A stretch of DNA of 36,827 bases, from the NCBI GenBank assembly GCA_947446585.1, contig CANFGZ010000004.1:1-36827 (forward strand). The letters are read 5' to 3'. Positions within the stretch are counted from its first letter, which is position 1, and the number at the start of each line of letters is the position of its first letter. This DNA comes from Chitinophagaceae bacterium (GTDB lineage Bacteria > Bacteroidota > Bacteroidia > Chitinophagales > Chitinophagaceae). Both the position numbers and the translations under genes were made by a program. Under the pieces are notes generated by a model. It did no database searches, was not told the DNA's origin, and saw only the letters and a program-made list of their open reading frames with translations. This document shows positions 700 through 36,112 of this stretch, one piece after another.

Positions 700-802
700 T
701 TAATTAGTAGAGTATGCTACAAAGGTAGAGATTATATTGTTTATTCGTTGAGTTGTTGAGTTGGGTTTAAGTCAGCGTCTTGAGGTTTAATTTTCAAACT
801 TA

Positions 803-867
803 AACGTTGAACGTTAAACCTTGAACCTTAAACTTTAAAGATTAAACCTTAAACTCAATCACTCAAC
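803..867. repeat. Seven tandem heptamers (803-851), then two reverse-complement octamers (852-867)
   Basis: AACGTTG AACGTTA AACCTTG AACCTTA AACTTTA AAGATTA AACCTTA, then AACTCAAT CACTCAAC. Forward octamers GTTGAGTT x2 lie at 747-762. Confidence 0.8.
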
Positions 868-5072: not shown

Positions 5073-5104
5073 GTTGAGACGTTGAGGCGTTTAGTTGTTG
5101 AGAT
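5073..5104. repeat. Octamer array, 4 units of GTTKAGNY
   Basis: gttgagac gttgaggc gtttagtt gttgagat, in register, just upstream of the exosortase start codon. Confidence 0.75.
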
Positions 5105-7884: not shown

Positions 7885-8090
7885 TGCCTTTTTGGTTGTC
7901 CAAAAGAGCTTAGAATCAGCAATACTCGCTATTACGGAAAAGGCTTCTAAAACTTAACAAGTTGTTTTAAAATTGTGATTTTATTAATGCCTTTTTGCTT
8001 GTCCAAAAAAGCTTAAAATCAGCAATACCCGCTATTACGGAAAATGTTTCTAAATCTTAGCAAGTTGTTTTAAAATTGTGATTTTATTAA
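7885..8090. repeat. Two tandem copies of a 103-bp repeat (7885-7987, 7988-8090), with a partial third copy starting at 8091
   Basis: Both copies run TGCCTTTTTGsTTGTCCAAAA...TTTTAAAATTGTGATTTTATTAA, with about 8 mismatches over 103 bp by eye. About 22 bp recur at 8091. Confidence 0.85.
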
Positions 8091-8092
8091 TG

Positions 8093-8411
8093 CCTTTTTG
8101 CTTGTCCAAAAAGGCAAACAAAAAGGACCCCGCCATCGATTGCCAGCCCGATGGCGGCTGGTTCCTTGATTTAGCTTTAAAACATACCGTCAACTTGAAA
8201 TCAATTTGATTTTTTGTTTATTGGCGTTTTGCCTAGCACTCGACAACCTTGGTACAATGTTTATTATTGATACCGTTCGCTTGCCAGCATAACGAACAAA
8301 AAGCGAAGCCAATGAAGGTATGTGCGCCTGCCTGCTTTTTGGAGTGGTGACCGAAGGGCAATGCCTTAAGCGAACTTGATTTTTTGCGTCCTTTTTGATC
8401 AAGCAAAAAGG
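8093..8411. repeat. 319-bp segment bounded by 22-bp near-perfect inverted repeats (MITE-like candidate)
   Basis: Left end CCTTTTTGCTTGTCCAAAAAGG (8093-8114); right end CCTTTTTGATCAAGCAAAAAGG (8390-8411). The left end's reverse complement matches the right end at 20 of 22 positions. No obvious target-site duplication. Confidence 0.55.
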
Positions 8412-8497: not shown

Positions 8498-9721
8498 TTA
8501 ATCGAATTTAGACAAACCGATATTCATTGACAACACTGACTTCTCTATAATTTCAGCTAAATAATTTTGATTAAAAGGAGAAATTTTATTGAGAGAAACG
8601 TCTCCCATTTGTTTGACTAATGAAGGGTTATTGCAAAATTCCTGCATTTTATTAAACAAATCATTTTCAACACCCGATTTAAATACAAAACCATTTTTGC
8701 CTTGCTCAATAAGATCGGGTGCACACCCTACTTTATCACTTACTATCATAGCTTTTCCGCAAGTCATCGCTTCATTCACCGCCAATCCCCAGGTTTCACC
8801 GGGGCCTTGTGAGGGTAATACGAATACATCTGCTAAGCGATAGACAATGGGCATCATTGATTGGTTTTGGAAAGGAAGGAAGATGATGTTGAGTTGTTGA
8901 GTTGTTGAGTTGTTGAGTTGTGTAATTTTAGATAGATCAACTAAATTATCTTTAAGTATGCCGTCTCCAACGAAAATCAAATGACAATCGTGTCTTGTTT
9001 CACTCAACTGCTTGAATGCTTTGATTAATAGCTCAGGATTTTTTTTGGATTCTAATTTTCCGGCAAATAAAAAAACTAAATCATTTTCTTTAATACCTAA
9101 ATCTAATCGCCATTGAGATGCACGCTGATTATATTCTCCTGTTAAATCAACAAAACGATTATTGTCTACCACATGCGGCGCATAAATCAATTGATTTTCT
9201 TTGATGTTATATTGTTTAAAATATTGTCGATTGTTCTCCCCCACATACAATGCATAATCAATGTTTCGATAAACCCATTTTAGCACTATATTTTTAATAA
9301 TAGATTTAAAGAAAGACGGAGAATCAAGTAAAGTAGAGTCGCCTCTAAAAAATAGAGGGATTTTATTTCTAAAATATCGCAAGCACGACAAATGAGCAGA
9401 ATAGCTCCATCCATATACTAACAATGCATCAGGCTGCCAGTTTTTGATTTGCTCATTTAGATCCCGACATTGAATGCCCTTAAAATGATGAGAACCTGGA
9501 TGCTTAGATATGGTTTCTAAAAACTGATATTCATACCCTTCTAACAACGGAATATCCCATTGAATAGATTTACCAAAACCAGGATCATATTTATCTTTTA
9601 AAACCGATTCTCCCCAAGTATAAAAAACTTTAATGGAAATAATCGCTCTCTCGCTTAGTAAACGAAACAAAGGGGCGTTGTACTGAATGGGATGAGTAGT
9701 GACAATAGCTAATTTTTTCAT
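8498..9721 (-). CDS. Glycosyltransferase family 4
   Basis: KKLAIVTTHPIQYNAPLFRLL; LVFLFAGKLESKKNPELLIKAF; VFVLPSQGPGETWGLAVNEAMTCGKAMIVSDKVGCAPDLI. Confidence 0.92.
   Translation of the reverse strand: MKKLAIVTTHPIQYNAPLFRLLSERAIISIKVFYTWGESVLKDKYDPGFGKSIQWDIPLLEGYEYQFLETISKHPGSHHFKGIQCRDLNEQIKNWQPDALLVYGWSYSAHLSCLRYFRNKIPLFFRGDSTLLDSPSFFKSIIKNIVLKWVYRNIDYALYVGENNRQYFKQYNIKENQLIYAPHVVDNNRFVDLTGEYNQRASQWRLDLGIKENDLVFLFAGKLESKKNPELLIKAFKQLSETRHDCHLIFVGDGILKDNLVDLSKITQLNNSTTQQLNIIFLPFQNQSMMPIVYRLADVFVLPSQGPGETWGLAVNEAMTCGKAMIVSDKVGCAPDLIEQGKNGFVFKSGVENDLFNKMQEFCNNPSLVKQMGDVSLNKISPFNQNYLAEIIEKSVLSMNIGLSKFD
8888..8919. repeat. In-gene octamer array (GTTGAGTT)x4 inside GT4 8498..9721
   Basis: gttgagtt gttgagtt gttgagtt gttgagtt; the coding strand reads TQLNNSTTQQLNII without breaking the frame. 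Confidence 0.9.
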
Positions 9722-11414: not shown

Positions 11415-12734
11415 TTATGAATGAATAGGTTTTGAATCATGAAGTGCCACTAATAAATCGGCCAAATATGCTGTGATTTTTTTAGCAGAAAATTTCTCAA
11501 AATCTGCCATCTCAATATTGTTTGGGTTATAATCAGTTTGAAATGTTAAAAAGTCCTGCAAGAAATCGATGAAACGATGCCCAATAGAATGAACATCAGG
11601 TTCTCCATTAAAATCAAACACTAATCCTGCATTTGTACTTCTCAACACTTCTACTGCAGAACTATATTTATGCAAAACTGCCATAACAGGCTTTTTACTA
11701 AGAACTGCTTGAAAGGCTTTGGAAGGAGTATAATGTGGCTCTGTGCTACCCAATATAAAAACAGCATCAGCAATATTTAAATGGGTTAAAACGTCTAAAT
11801 AAGGAATACGTTTGGGATATTCAAATACGATTGTATTCCACAAACTGTATTTTTCAGCTAATGACTTGATGTTATAACTTTCAGGATCGTTGGGTCGGCT
11901 GCCGGTTCCAATGAAATGGAATTCTATTTTCTGTTGAGGTGTTGAGTTGTTGAGGTGTTGAGAAAGAGATTTGAATATTTCCTCTAAAAGAAGATAGGCC
12001 TTTGGTAACATGGCGCCGGCATAAACAAACTGAATCACCCCTGCTTTCTTTTGAAATAAATATGGCTGTAAATTCAATCTCTTAACAGCCTCATGATCTG
12101 ACGACTCCCCACCATAAGGCATGGCACCAAATTTACAAGTACCTTTTAAATGAGGATTTCGATCAATAACAGACCGATAATACCCCTCAGCAACTCCAGT
12201 AATAAGAGAAGCTTTTTTAACAGCAATGGGTTCTAAAAATTTAGCCAACTGAGTACTCCACCAATGTCGAGAAAAAAACTTATTAGAACCAGGGAATTGA
12301 TGCACCCAGGGATCAACATAATCAATTCCATAGCGTACACCCGTTTTTCGATGAAGGTATCGGCCTATTAAAGCCGTATAAAAAGAAGGAACAATGATAT
12401 AAACGAAATCAATCTTCTCTAATTGAATCAACTCCAGTGCTTTTTTACGTAATTGAAAAAAACCACGTAGTCCAATATCTCCAATCAGTCTCGGCTTAGT
12501 TACAGAAAAAGCATTCACTTTTTCTATTCTTTGATTATTTGGAATTAGCTTATGCAAGTTCCAATCTAAATTTTCCTCATAATACTTTTCATGTACTGTT
12601 AAAATAATAGGCTCCCAACCAAAGGAAGACAAATGTTGAGCAAACAATCTTGCTCTATGAACAGCAGCCAAGTTAGATGGTGGGTAATGAGGAGATATGA
12701 GGAGGATTTTTTTCAATTTAGTAAGGCTTCCCAT
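11415..12734 (-). CDS. Glycosyltransferase family 4-like
   Basis: KKILLISPHYPPSNLAAVHRARLFAQHLSSFGWEPIILT; FVYAGAMLPKAYLLLEEIF; HFIGTGSRPNDPES. Confidence 0.85.
   Translation of the reverse strand: MGSLTKLKKILLISPHYPPSNLAAVHRARLFAQHLSSFGWEPIILTVHEKYYEENLDWNLHKLIPNNQRIEKVNAFSVTKPRLIGDIGLRGFFQLRKKALELIQLEKIDFVYIIVPSFYTALIGRYLHRKTGVRYGIDYVDPWVHQFPGSNKFFSRHWWSTQLAKFLEPIAVKKASLITGVAEGYYRSVIDRNPHLKGTCKFGAMPYGGESSDHEAVKRLNLQPYLFQKKAGVIQFVYAGAMLPKAYLLLEEIFKSLSQHLNNSTPQQKIEFHFIGTGSRPNDPESYNIKSLAEKYSLWNTIVFEYPKRIPYLDVLTHLNIADAVFILGSTEPHYTPSKAFQAVLSKKPVMAVLHKYSSAVEVLRSTNAGLVFDFNGEPDVHSIGHRFIDFLQDFLTFQTDYNPNNIEMADFEKFSAKKITAYLADLLVALHDSKPIHS
11933..11962. repeat. In-gene octamer array (GTTGAGKT)x3.75 inside GT4 11415..12734
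   Basis: gttgaggt gttgagtt gttgaggt gttgag; the coding strand reads SLSQHLNNSTPQQK. Confidence 0.88.
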
Positions 12735-33691: not shown

Positions 33692-33854
33692 ATTGAGGTG
33701 TTTAGTCGTTTAGCTGTTGAGACGTTTAGTTGTTGAATTGATTAACGATATTTGGTAGTCGGTAAATAATATTTAATTTTTTGGAGTCCGTTAAATTATT
33801 GATCTGCAAATTTATAGTGACGAATCAACGAATCAACAACTAAACAAATCAACA
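33692..33854. repeat. Two opposed octamer arrays: six GTTKAGNY-type units (33692-33739) and four units in reverse complement (33823-33854)
   Basis: attgaggt gtttagtc gtttagct gttgagac gtttagtt gttgaatt ... aatcaacg aatcaaca actaaaca aatcaaca, in register at 8-nt spacing. Confidence 0.72.
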
Positions 33855-33871
33855 AGCGAAATTTTTCGCCG

Positions 33872-34735: not shown

Positions 34736-34750
34736 TATTACTGATTGTTC

Positions 34751-34874
34751 GTTTAAGGTTTAAGGTTTAAGGTTTAACGTTCAAATCGTTCAACGAGAAA
34801 TATTAGTACTATAAAATCAAAGTAAAGAAATGTATTTGATGCGTTGAACCTTGAACCATTGAACCACTTAAACC
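34751..34874. repeat. Opposed heptamer arms: GTTTAAG x3, GTTTAAC, GTTCAAA, tcGTTCAACG (34751-34795) and CGTTGAACCTTGAACC...CTTAAACC (34842-34874)
   Basis: Direct reading. The 8-mer GTTCAACG is the exact reverse complement of CGTTGAAC in the other arm. Confidence 0.72.
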
Positions 34875-36040
34875 AATAAGGCTTCTTCCAACCGCCTCTT
34901 ATACTCATCATACCCAAAGCTTTCCATCAACAATTCCTCATTAGGTAGATATTTGTTTTTATCATTTAATATATTATCAATGGCAATTTCAATTTCATTG
35001 GTATCTAATGGATTCACTAAAGTTCCTAATGCGCCATTTATAAGTGCATCAACAGACCCATCCATATTTCCTGCAATAACAGGAAGACCATAATGCATCG
35101 CTTCAATGAATACAATCCCAAATCCTTCTTTTATACTAGGCATTACATATAAATCGGCTAGAGAAAAGTGTGCATCCAGCTCCTCCTCTGAAACAAATCC
35201 TGGAACCACTACAAAATCCTTTAATCCATGATGAGCAATTAATTGATCTAGATATTGTTTTTCTTGTGAATCGTATTTACCAGCTAACAAATAACGTAAT
35301 TGCGGATGCCTAGGTATTAAATTAACCATTGCTTCTATCACCCTGTCATATCCTTTATATCTTTCTTTGGATGAAATACGTGTAAGGGTAAGCATAACCT
35401 TTTGGTCATTTGTAAACCCATATTTCATTCTAATATTATCTTCATTTACAACACTACTTATATTTGGAATAAATGGATCTAAACAATTATTGATCACCTT
35501 GCATTTCAAAGGATCAATTTGTTGATTCTCCTGTAATTTCATGGAAGTAAATTGACTAACCGAAACGAATGTGTCAATGGATGTAAGCATCATTTTCTGA
35601 ATCCAACTCAACTTACCCCACACTTCTATTCCATGAGCAATCAAAATAATTTTAGCAGAAGGATTAATGAGTTTAATCATACGTCCAACCAACAACAAAT
35701 TAATATGACTAAGAACAATATGATTTTTTTTTCTTCCCATCCAAATAGCTTCTACAATAAATTTCATTTTGCTTTTGCCAAACCCTTTAAATATATCTGA
35801 AGTGAAATAACGATTGTCATCAGCATCTTCTTGCTGATCATACATTGACAATACTCGAATAGTTGCTTTTTCTTCTACCGAAAAAGAATAAATAGCCTTT
35901 CCTATAACCTTGCATACTTTCTCTATACCTCCGGTTGCGGAGAAAACTTTTAATGTAAGGAAGAGTATGTTTTTTTTGGGTTTAATAGGTTTCAGGGGTT
36001 TCAGAAGTTTAAAATGTTTTTTTAAGGGTTTTTCATTCAA
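34868..36040 (-). CDS. Glycosyltransferase family 4 with a repeat-built N-terminus
   Basis: ILFLTLKVFSATGGIEKVCKVIGKAI; VMLTLTRISSKERYKGYDRVIEAM; LADLYVMPSIKEGFGIVFIEAMHYGLPVIAGNMDGS. N-terminus MNEKPLKKHFKLLKPLKPIKPKK. Confidence 0.93.
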   Translation of the reverse strand: MNEKPLKKHFKLLKPLKPIKPKKNILFLTLKVFSATGGIEKVCKVIGKAIYSFSVEEKATIRVLSMYDQQEDADDNRYFTSDIFKGFGKSKMKFIVEAIWMGRKKNHIVLSHINLLLVGRMIKLINPSAKIILIAHGIEVWGKLSWIQKMMLTSIDTFVSVSQFTSMKLQENQQIDPLKCKVINNCLDPFIPNISSVVNEDNIRMKYGFTNDQKVMLTLTRISSKERYKGYDRVIEAMVNLIPRHPQLRYLLAGKYDSQEKQYLDQLIAHHGLKDFVVVPGFVSEEELDAHFSLADLYVMPSIKEGFGIVFIEAMHYGLPVIAGNMDGSVDALINGALGTLVNPLDTNEIEIAIDNILNDKNKYLPNEELLMESFGYDEYKRRLEEALLV

Positions 36041-36084
36041 CTTTTAAACTGATTTAACTTTTGAAACAGTTTTACAAATCCATT

Positions 36085-36112
36085 AAACTTCAAACCTTAA
36101 ACGTTAAACGTA
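36085..36112. repeat. Four tandem heptamers, intergenic
   Basis: AAACTTC AAACCTT AAACGTT AAACGTA. Confidence 0.7.

Follow-up and report, generated by a model that had tools for sequence, protein, structure and literature searches.

Short tandem units arranged as opposed pairs have been described in Geobacter metallireducens, where the Gmet_I classes 1–4 are paired sites (Aklujkar et al. 2009, PMC2700814); the unit examples in the accessible part of that paper include four octamers GTTGCTYN and five heptamers MTYCTGA. Arrays of the heptamer TAACTGA have been reported from Beggiatoaceae, Cyanobacteria, and five Bacteroidetes (PMC4679880). REP/BIME and RAYT- or TIRYT-associated repeats are, like the elements reported here, dispersed intergenic hairpins with many copies (PMC3733652).

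Here we analyzed a window of 36,827 nucleotides, which is contig C4 of a MAG with 2.35 Mb in 256 contigs and in which an earlier note had pointed out a composite repeat, and compared it with relatives in Chitinophagaceae. The repeat belongs to a large and largely undescribed class that fills intergenic gaps in this family, and whose function, as far as the sequences suggest, may lie at transcript ends.

An ordered composite repeat in the window

The element lies between a GH3-family gene (PF03321; − strand, leftward from its start at 699) and an mtaB-like methylthiotransferase gene (UPF0004 and Radical_SAM; + strand, rightward from 887). Its left, G-rich arm (739–771, + strand), identified by direct reading, TRF, and its pairing with 852–867, reads GTTTATTC GTTGAGTT GTTGAGTT GGGTTTAAG; two copies of GTTGAGTT (747–762) are preceded by a degenerate GTTTATTC (739–746) and followed by GGGTTTAAG (763–771). 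The core (780–802, + strand; inverted-repeat search and fold) contains GGTTTAA/TTCAAAC stretches whose pairing partners are the inner heptamers, and the inverted repeat formed by 780–815 and 817–852 is 78% complementary. The inner part of the C-rich right arm (803–851, + strand; direct reading and TRF) consists of seven in-register heptamers (AACGTTG, AACGTTA, AACCTTG, AACCTTA, AACTTTA, AAGATTA, and AACCTTA). Its outer part (852–867, + strand; inverted-repeat search) consists of two reverse-complement octamers, AACTCAAT CACTCAAC, that match the octamer pair at 747–762 with 2/16 mismatches (88% complementary). TRF reported the heptamers at 799–854 (score 63) and 796–855 (score 71), and the octamers with period 8 at 747–763 (score 34).

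The order of octamers, heptamers, and reverse octamers given in the earlier note is therefore present in the gap. Its description of seven AACSTTR heptamers is right as to number and register, but only 5/7 units match that motif exactly, the deviating ones being 831–837 and 838–844. The suggestion that the opposed octamers could fold into a long hairpin is supported by the complementarity of the arms and by the predicted fold of the gap, which reached −41.3 kcal/mol compared with −21.6 ± 3.4 kcal/mol for dinucleotide shuffles (z −5.8; 0/200 as good) and was similarly extreme on the other strand (z −5.7). Like the earlier note, we recognized no named repeat class. A search against Rfam 15 at gathering score returned zero matches across the whole window, and the window gap has no GTAG-tagged palindrome of the RAYT-associated REP/BIME type (20–40 bp palindrome, GTAG/CGTC tag). 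CRISPR arrays have repeats of ~23–47 bp with unique spacers of similar length, whereas the window units are 7–8 bp, head-to-tail, and without spacers.

Putative promoter-like sites, recognized by direct reading of the sequence, are located on both sides of the element: TACCTTTG (720–727, − strand) for the leftward GH3 gene and TACCTTCG (875–882, + strand) for mtaB. The latter begins 8 bp past the right arm and is retained in L102, the closest mtaB relative. The Bacteroidetes −7 promoter consensus is TAnnTTTG.

Period-7/8 arrays are strongly enriched in the window as a whole. With a score of at least 34, 11 arrays were detected compared with 0.76 in first-order Markov simulations of the window (maximum of 4 in 100 simulations), and with a score of at least 55, four were detected compared with none simulated. 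A second opposed pair occupies a convergent gap (2163–2241, + strand; TRF and direct reading), with GTTCAA-type units at ~2163–2201 and TTAAACC heptamers at 2212–2241. The third, in a tandem gap, has a left octamer arm (GTTTAGTC, GTTGAGAC; 33692–33739, + strand; TRF) and a right octamer arm (AATCAACA; 33822–33855, + strand; TRF) that is 72–86% complementary to the left. The fourth, also in a tandem gap, has a left heptamer arm (GTTTAAG; 34751–34784, + strand; TRF) and a right arm of TTGAACC, TTGAACCAT, and TTAAACC units (34843–34879, + strand; TRF and fold). The gaps of these last two pairs also fold better than shuffles (33710–33858, z −3.4; 34745–34879, z −7.7). Further single arrays by TRF are an octamer left arm (GTTGAGAC/GTTTAGTT; 5073–5103, + strand), where the right side of the gap is degenerate, and a right-type heptamer array (TTAAACG; 36083–36111, + strand), for which a left arm was not detected. 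G-rich units precede C-rich units in the window gaps, be the genes divergent, convergent, or tandem.

Two octamer arrays (8887–8921 and 11932–11962) are in frame within two glycosyltransferase-like genes of a polysaccharide cluster; they encode the near-identical peptides QLNNSTTQQL and HLNNSTPQQ and are stop-free solely in the AC-rich orientation. A 103-bp tandem repeat (7885–8112; 2.2 copies, 93% matches) adjoins hairpin-rich intergenic sequence.

Origin of the contig and the mtaB neighborhood in relatives

Nearly all array matches of the MAG are located on C4, with the remaining contigs at about chance level. A second mtaB is present in the bin on C119 (80% protein and 75% DNA identity), with a further piece on C80. 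Because of this second mtaB and the near confinement of arrays to C4, the sequence data suggest that C4 is probably misbinned and derived from another species; a copy search in the MAG alone would thus wrongly fail the finding. The expectation of further copies, raised in the earlier note, was borne out by arrays found genome-wide in Chitinophagaceae relatives but not by the other contigs of the MAG, which hold next to none.

The named sequences closest to mtaB come from Chitinophagaceae, and several are labelled Ferruginibacter. Most of the relatives' gaps that were read contain a small ORF that runs leftward and separates GH3 from mtaB (L018, L023, L024, L025). This ORF is absent in the window and in G481 (L022), and in the window the arrays fill that gap. 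The relatives' arrays directly upstream of the mtaB promoter-like site differ widely from those of the window. Comparisons included G474, a genome assigned to the bin's genus (array-rich, 100% complete), Pinibacter aurantiacus (G484), and the related isolate 26-R-25 (G483).

Polarity of the paired arrays

Array polarity was defined by G/C skew, and the order of the two polarities was then counted. Across five Chitinophagaceae data sets, opposed pairs had a G-rich/C-poor left array and a C-rich/G-poor right array in 98 cases, compared with 2 reversed. The ratio of G-rich-first to C-rich-first pairs was 23:1 in G474, 11:0 in G473, 11:1 in the named mtaB loci (L133 and L148 left out), 42:0 in 400 kb of P. 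aurantiacus, and 11:0 in 400 kb of 26-R-25. The pattern GAGTTGAG-N(25-55)-CTCAACTC gave 50 whole-genome matches in P. aurantiacus and 20 in 26-R-25 (counts that include overlaps inside one element); in reversed order it gave 0 and 0. This polarity holds regardless of gene orientation and is common to species with unrelated repeat units. Since the rule is sharp, independent of gene orientation, and shared by such species, one common mechanism or constraint seems to underlie it. Inverted repeats with periodic arms likewise had a G-rich left arm in 73 cases versus a C-rich one in 5 (all sets), whereas aperiodic inverted repeats in P. aurantiacus lacked polarity (left arm C-rich in 24, G-rich in 21).

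The opposed-arm geometry proposed for the window therefore recurs as a rule across relatives. As for how often arrays occur with both arms, this was so in about half of the array-bearing gaps at the thresholds used (for example, 43/85 in P. aurantiacus). The earlier note also raised a possible link between periods 8 and 7, which did not recur. In the window, the octamers lie outside the heptamers; G474 contigs picked for heptamer matches have the opposite order, and in unpicked G474 contigs the two periods are hardly coupled at all.

Two other accounts of the polarity were considered and set aside. GTT is a valid polarity anchor in G474, but other species have other units, and when the mtaB loci were counted by GTT, no polarity emerged (FR 4, RF 3), where G/C skew did reveal it. 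General intergenic skew exists, yet it is weak after masking of the arrays.

Element anatomy and arm matching

In 400 kb of P. aurantiacus, an inverted-repeat search identified 115 intergenic elements; shuffled controls of up to the first 100 kb per sequence gave none. Arms with period 7, 8, 9, or 14 were present in 62 of the 115 (period 9 in one). Many arms have about four units, such as AATTTGAA, AATTGAA, AATTAAT, AGTTGAG, or AACTGAAT, with CACTAAG and GCAAAG as looser ones. Looser families (GATTTTCATGATT, CACTAAG, GCAAAG) at 190311–190441, 47126–47220, and 186631–186889 of contig C1 have units 8–10 bp apart and resemble an irregularly spaced version of the same architecture.

In P. aurantiacus, arms of the same gap matched each other at 0.775, compared with 0.359 when permuted (0/5000), and in 26-R-25 at 0.700 compared with 0.384 (0/5000). 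In P. aurantiacus, the match also exceeded that with arms of the same unit family taken from other gaps when permutation was limited to the family (0.778 versus 0.693; 0/5000). Arm matching in Pinibacter is not built in, because pairs were defined by tandem repeats and not by complementarity. G474 differs in that its arm match equals chance (0.399 versus 0.407 permuted), its polarity being retained nonetheless. The hairpin inferred for the window can therefore not be extended as a general feature, and it cannot alone be the rule or the sole reason for the geometry. In 26-R-25 and P. aurantiacus, the cores of 61/74 periodic elements are unlike any other core, and the remaining 13/74 resemble another.

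Genomic placement and turnover

Of the 51.6 kb of intergenic DNA in the 400-kb sample of P. aurantiacus, inverted-repeat elements of all kinds make up 15.4 kb (~30%), and about half of them have tandem 7–8 bp arms. The share of gaps that contain them is 66% for convergent, 47% for tandem, and 32% for divergent neighbors, and the densities are 3.4, 2.3, and 1.1 per kb of gap sequence, respectively. In convergent gaps, the elements lie a median of 1.5 bp from a gene end; in tandem gaps the median is 9 bp, measured from the 3′ end of the upstream gene, and 50/71 elements are closer to that end (distances are approximate, as ORFs were called mechanically). In 26-R-25, too, the elements sit close to gene 3′ ends. 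T-runs after the arms, as in canonical intrinsic terminators, were not found in P. aurantiacus and 26-R-25, where 3.3 of 10 positions equals background.

Near mtaB, 26-R-25 and P. aurantiacus are syntenic with 84–91% identity (about 88%). The unit family differs between the two genomes in five orthologous gaps and is retained in other gaps. Four of the swapped gaps have AATTAGG or AATTAAG versus AATTAAT elements, and one has AATTGAA versus AGTTGAG. Swapped-family gaps include L148 8076–8302, 12694–12829, and 17932–18136 versus L133 8060–8286, 12681–12850, and 17765–17900, and a further such comparison is L187 and L201 versus contig C1 of P. aurantiacus. Some swapped units agree at five of seven letters, so that arm drift may account for part of a swap, but the cores differ as well. 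Moreover, a GAACGCAGATTTTCATG-type element in 26-R-25 (L148 13431–13608) is missing from the intact orthologous site in Pinibacter (L133 13448–13451), with no clear target duplication by eye. As these two cultured relatives differ in families at the same gaps, turnover and function can be tested in the laboratory.

In L252, L258, L259, L264, L266, and L267, long hairpin inverted repeats border the genes for Y1 (IS200-like) transposases. Some of the palindromes flanking Y1 genes (GGTCGGGAGACCAGACGG type) also occur inside the heptamer-array gaps of G474.

Possible functions and origins

Our preferred, still tentative reading is that the window element is a member of a large intergenic class of paired arrays in Chitinophagaceae that acts at transcript ends. 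The element consists of two short tandem arrays of 7–8 bp units, inverted around a non-repeated core, and from either strand the first arm is G-rich/C-poor and the second C-rich/G-poor. Where the arms match, as in the window, RNA of either strand could form a long stem that pairs in several registers and that may end, block, or protect transcripts coming into the gap from either side. The geometry is strand-symmetric, and one element would therefore serve both neighboring genes. The core would be free of constraint. Template-switch correction or gene conversion, acting along with slippage, could keep the arms alike, and exchange at fixed sites would involve whole elements. Matching arms, 3′-end preference, symmetry, and free cores all fit this reading, and a function at transcript ends is what we infer as most likely. 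Against it, the arms have no following T-run, and the window gap separates divergent genes and has a promoter-like site at each flank of the element, a setting with the least need for a terminator. Above all, polarity without arm matching in G474 speaks against it. A hairpin function as such needs no polarity, because the aperiodic inverted repeats of P. aurantiacus show none, and polarity is the more general fact, because G474 keeps it with a chance-level arm match.

Polarity without matching, as in G474, fits protein-binding platforms, in which each arm would be a row of about four 7–8 bp sites and an oligomeric nucleoid or regulatory protein would bridge the core. Free cores and a fixed unit number also fit, and the accessible text on the similar paired sites of G. 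metallireducens proposes IHF/HU or global-regulator binding (PMC2700814). We nevertheless consider such platforms unlikely, given that the many unrelated units per genome (AATTTGAA, AATTAAT, AGTTGAG, AACTGAAT, CACTAAG, GCAAAG) need many specificities, and that binding alone does not demand the covariation of arms by locus within a family. Somewhat less probable still are miniature transposons moved by a transposase, with the arms as terminal inverted repeats. Dispersed families, sharp ends, same-site replacement, and the one clear empty site (L148 13431 versus L133) agree with mobility, and tyrosine transposases flanked by terminal inverted repeats are known (PMC3733652). However, the ends are common to copies and the interiors are not, since most cores (61/74) are unique; target duplication was not clear by eye, and the Y1 transposases present adjoin mostly other hairpins rather than such arms. 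We give about the same low weight to a neutral by-product without function, in which the tandem units would arise by polymerase slippage and the inverted repeat would be perfected by template switching from arm to arm. These two processes can account for units and arm matching, and heptamers are the most abundant 5–11 nt repeats in most bacterial genomes according to work cited in PMC4679880, in line with the predominance of period 7–8 and the near absence of period 6. Template switching creates and maintains hairpins, as stated in the available part of PMC8794818. Neither process accounts for the polarity (98:2; 70:0) or for the enrichment at gene 3′ ends.

Comparably doubtful is a reading in which the arrays are both made and acted on by a novel bacterial machine, which would place polar G-rich-to-C-rich array pairs around unrelated cores, draw on a genome-specific unit pool, and swap whole pairs at one site; if it were true, the arms would be set independently in some species, and polarity, not the hairpin, would be the signature. 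Telomere-like healing, by which broken ends would gain G-rich units at their 3′ ends and then join with independent arms, would yield the polarity of a head-to-head telomere fusion and agrees with the independent arms of G474 and the unique cores of G483 and G484. We regard it as very improbable, considering that G474 lacks Ku and the RVT_1 reverse transcriptase, that G484 lacks RVT_1, and that Pinibacter arms covary by locus. Least credible of all are all-frame translation stops, that is, stop-bearing units with a period not divisible by three that would end translation at gene ends. Stops are present in 87% of G-rich-strand units, and periods 7 and 8 predominate with 6 near absent, but units with shuffled letters already reach 80%, and the stop-free units GTTGGAG and GTTGGCA keep the polarity too.

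Comparison with known systems

'I-shaped' intrinsic terminators are hairpins without a U-tract. The transcript-end reading places our elements close to them, as stems near gene 3′ ends without a T-run; our elements differ in having much longer stems, loops of 20–100 nt, tandem arms, and a presence in divergent gaps too, and termination would here be a predicted activity. On U-tract-less terminators in Bacteroidetes, the searchable literature held nothing useful. REP/BIME and TIRYT-associated repeats have neither the tandem 7–8 bp arms nor the untagged (GTAG-free) sequence of the Chitinophagaceae elements. The TAACTGA arrays are similar as intergenic heptamer direct repeats with varying copy number and patchy distribution (PMC4679880). 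In contrast to our elements, they are nearly all direct repeats without an opposed arm, located mostly just upstream of start codons, and built from another unit.

In the searchable, mostly non-subscription literature, neither a name for the tandem-arm class nor a description of the polarity rule was found, and the polarity law, lineage-dependent arm matching, and same-site replacement appear undescribed there. The paired-array architecture itself has been seen before. The accessible text on the Geobacter sites makes no mention of polarity, arm matching, 3′-end bias, or same-site family replacement; those sites belong to another phylum, have other units, and are proposed there as regulator or IHF/HU sites (PMC2700814). 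The G. metallireducens paired sites are nonetheless the closest published match that we found: their 3–5 tandem units of 7–9 nt, set in opposite-strand pairs at variable distance and in multiple copies, are an arrangement that we also find in the window and its relatives.
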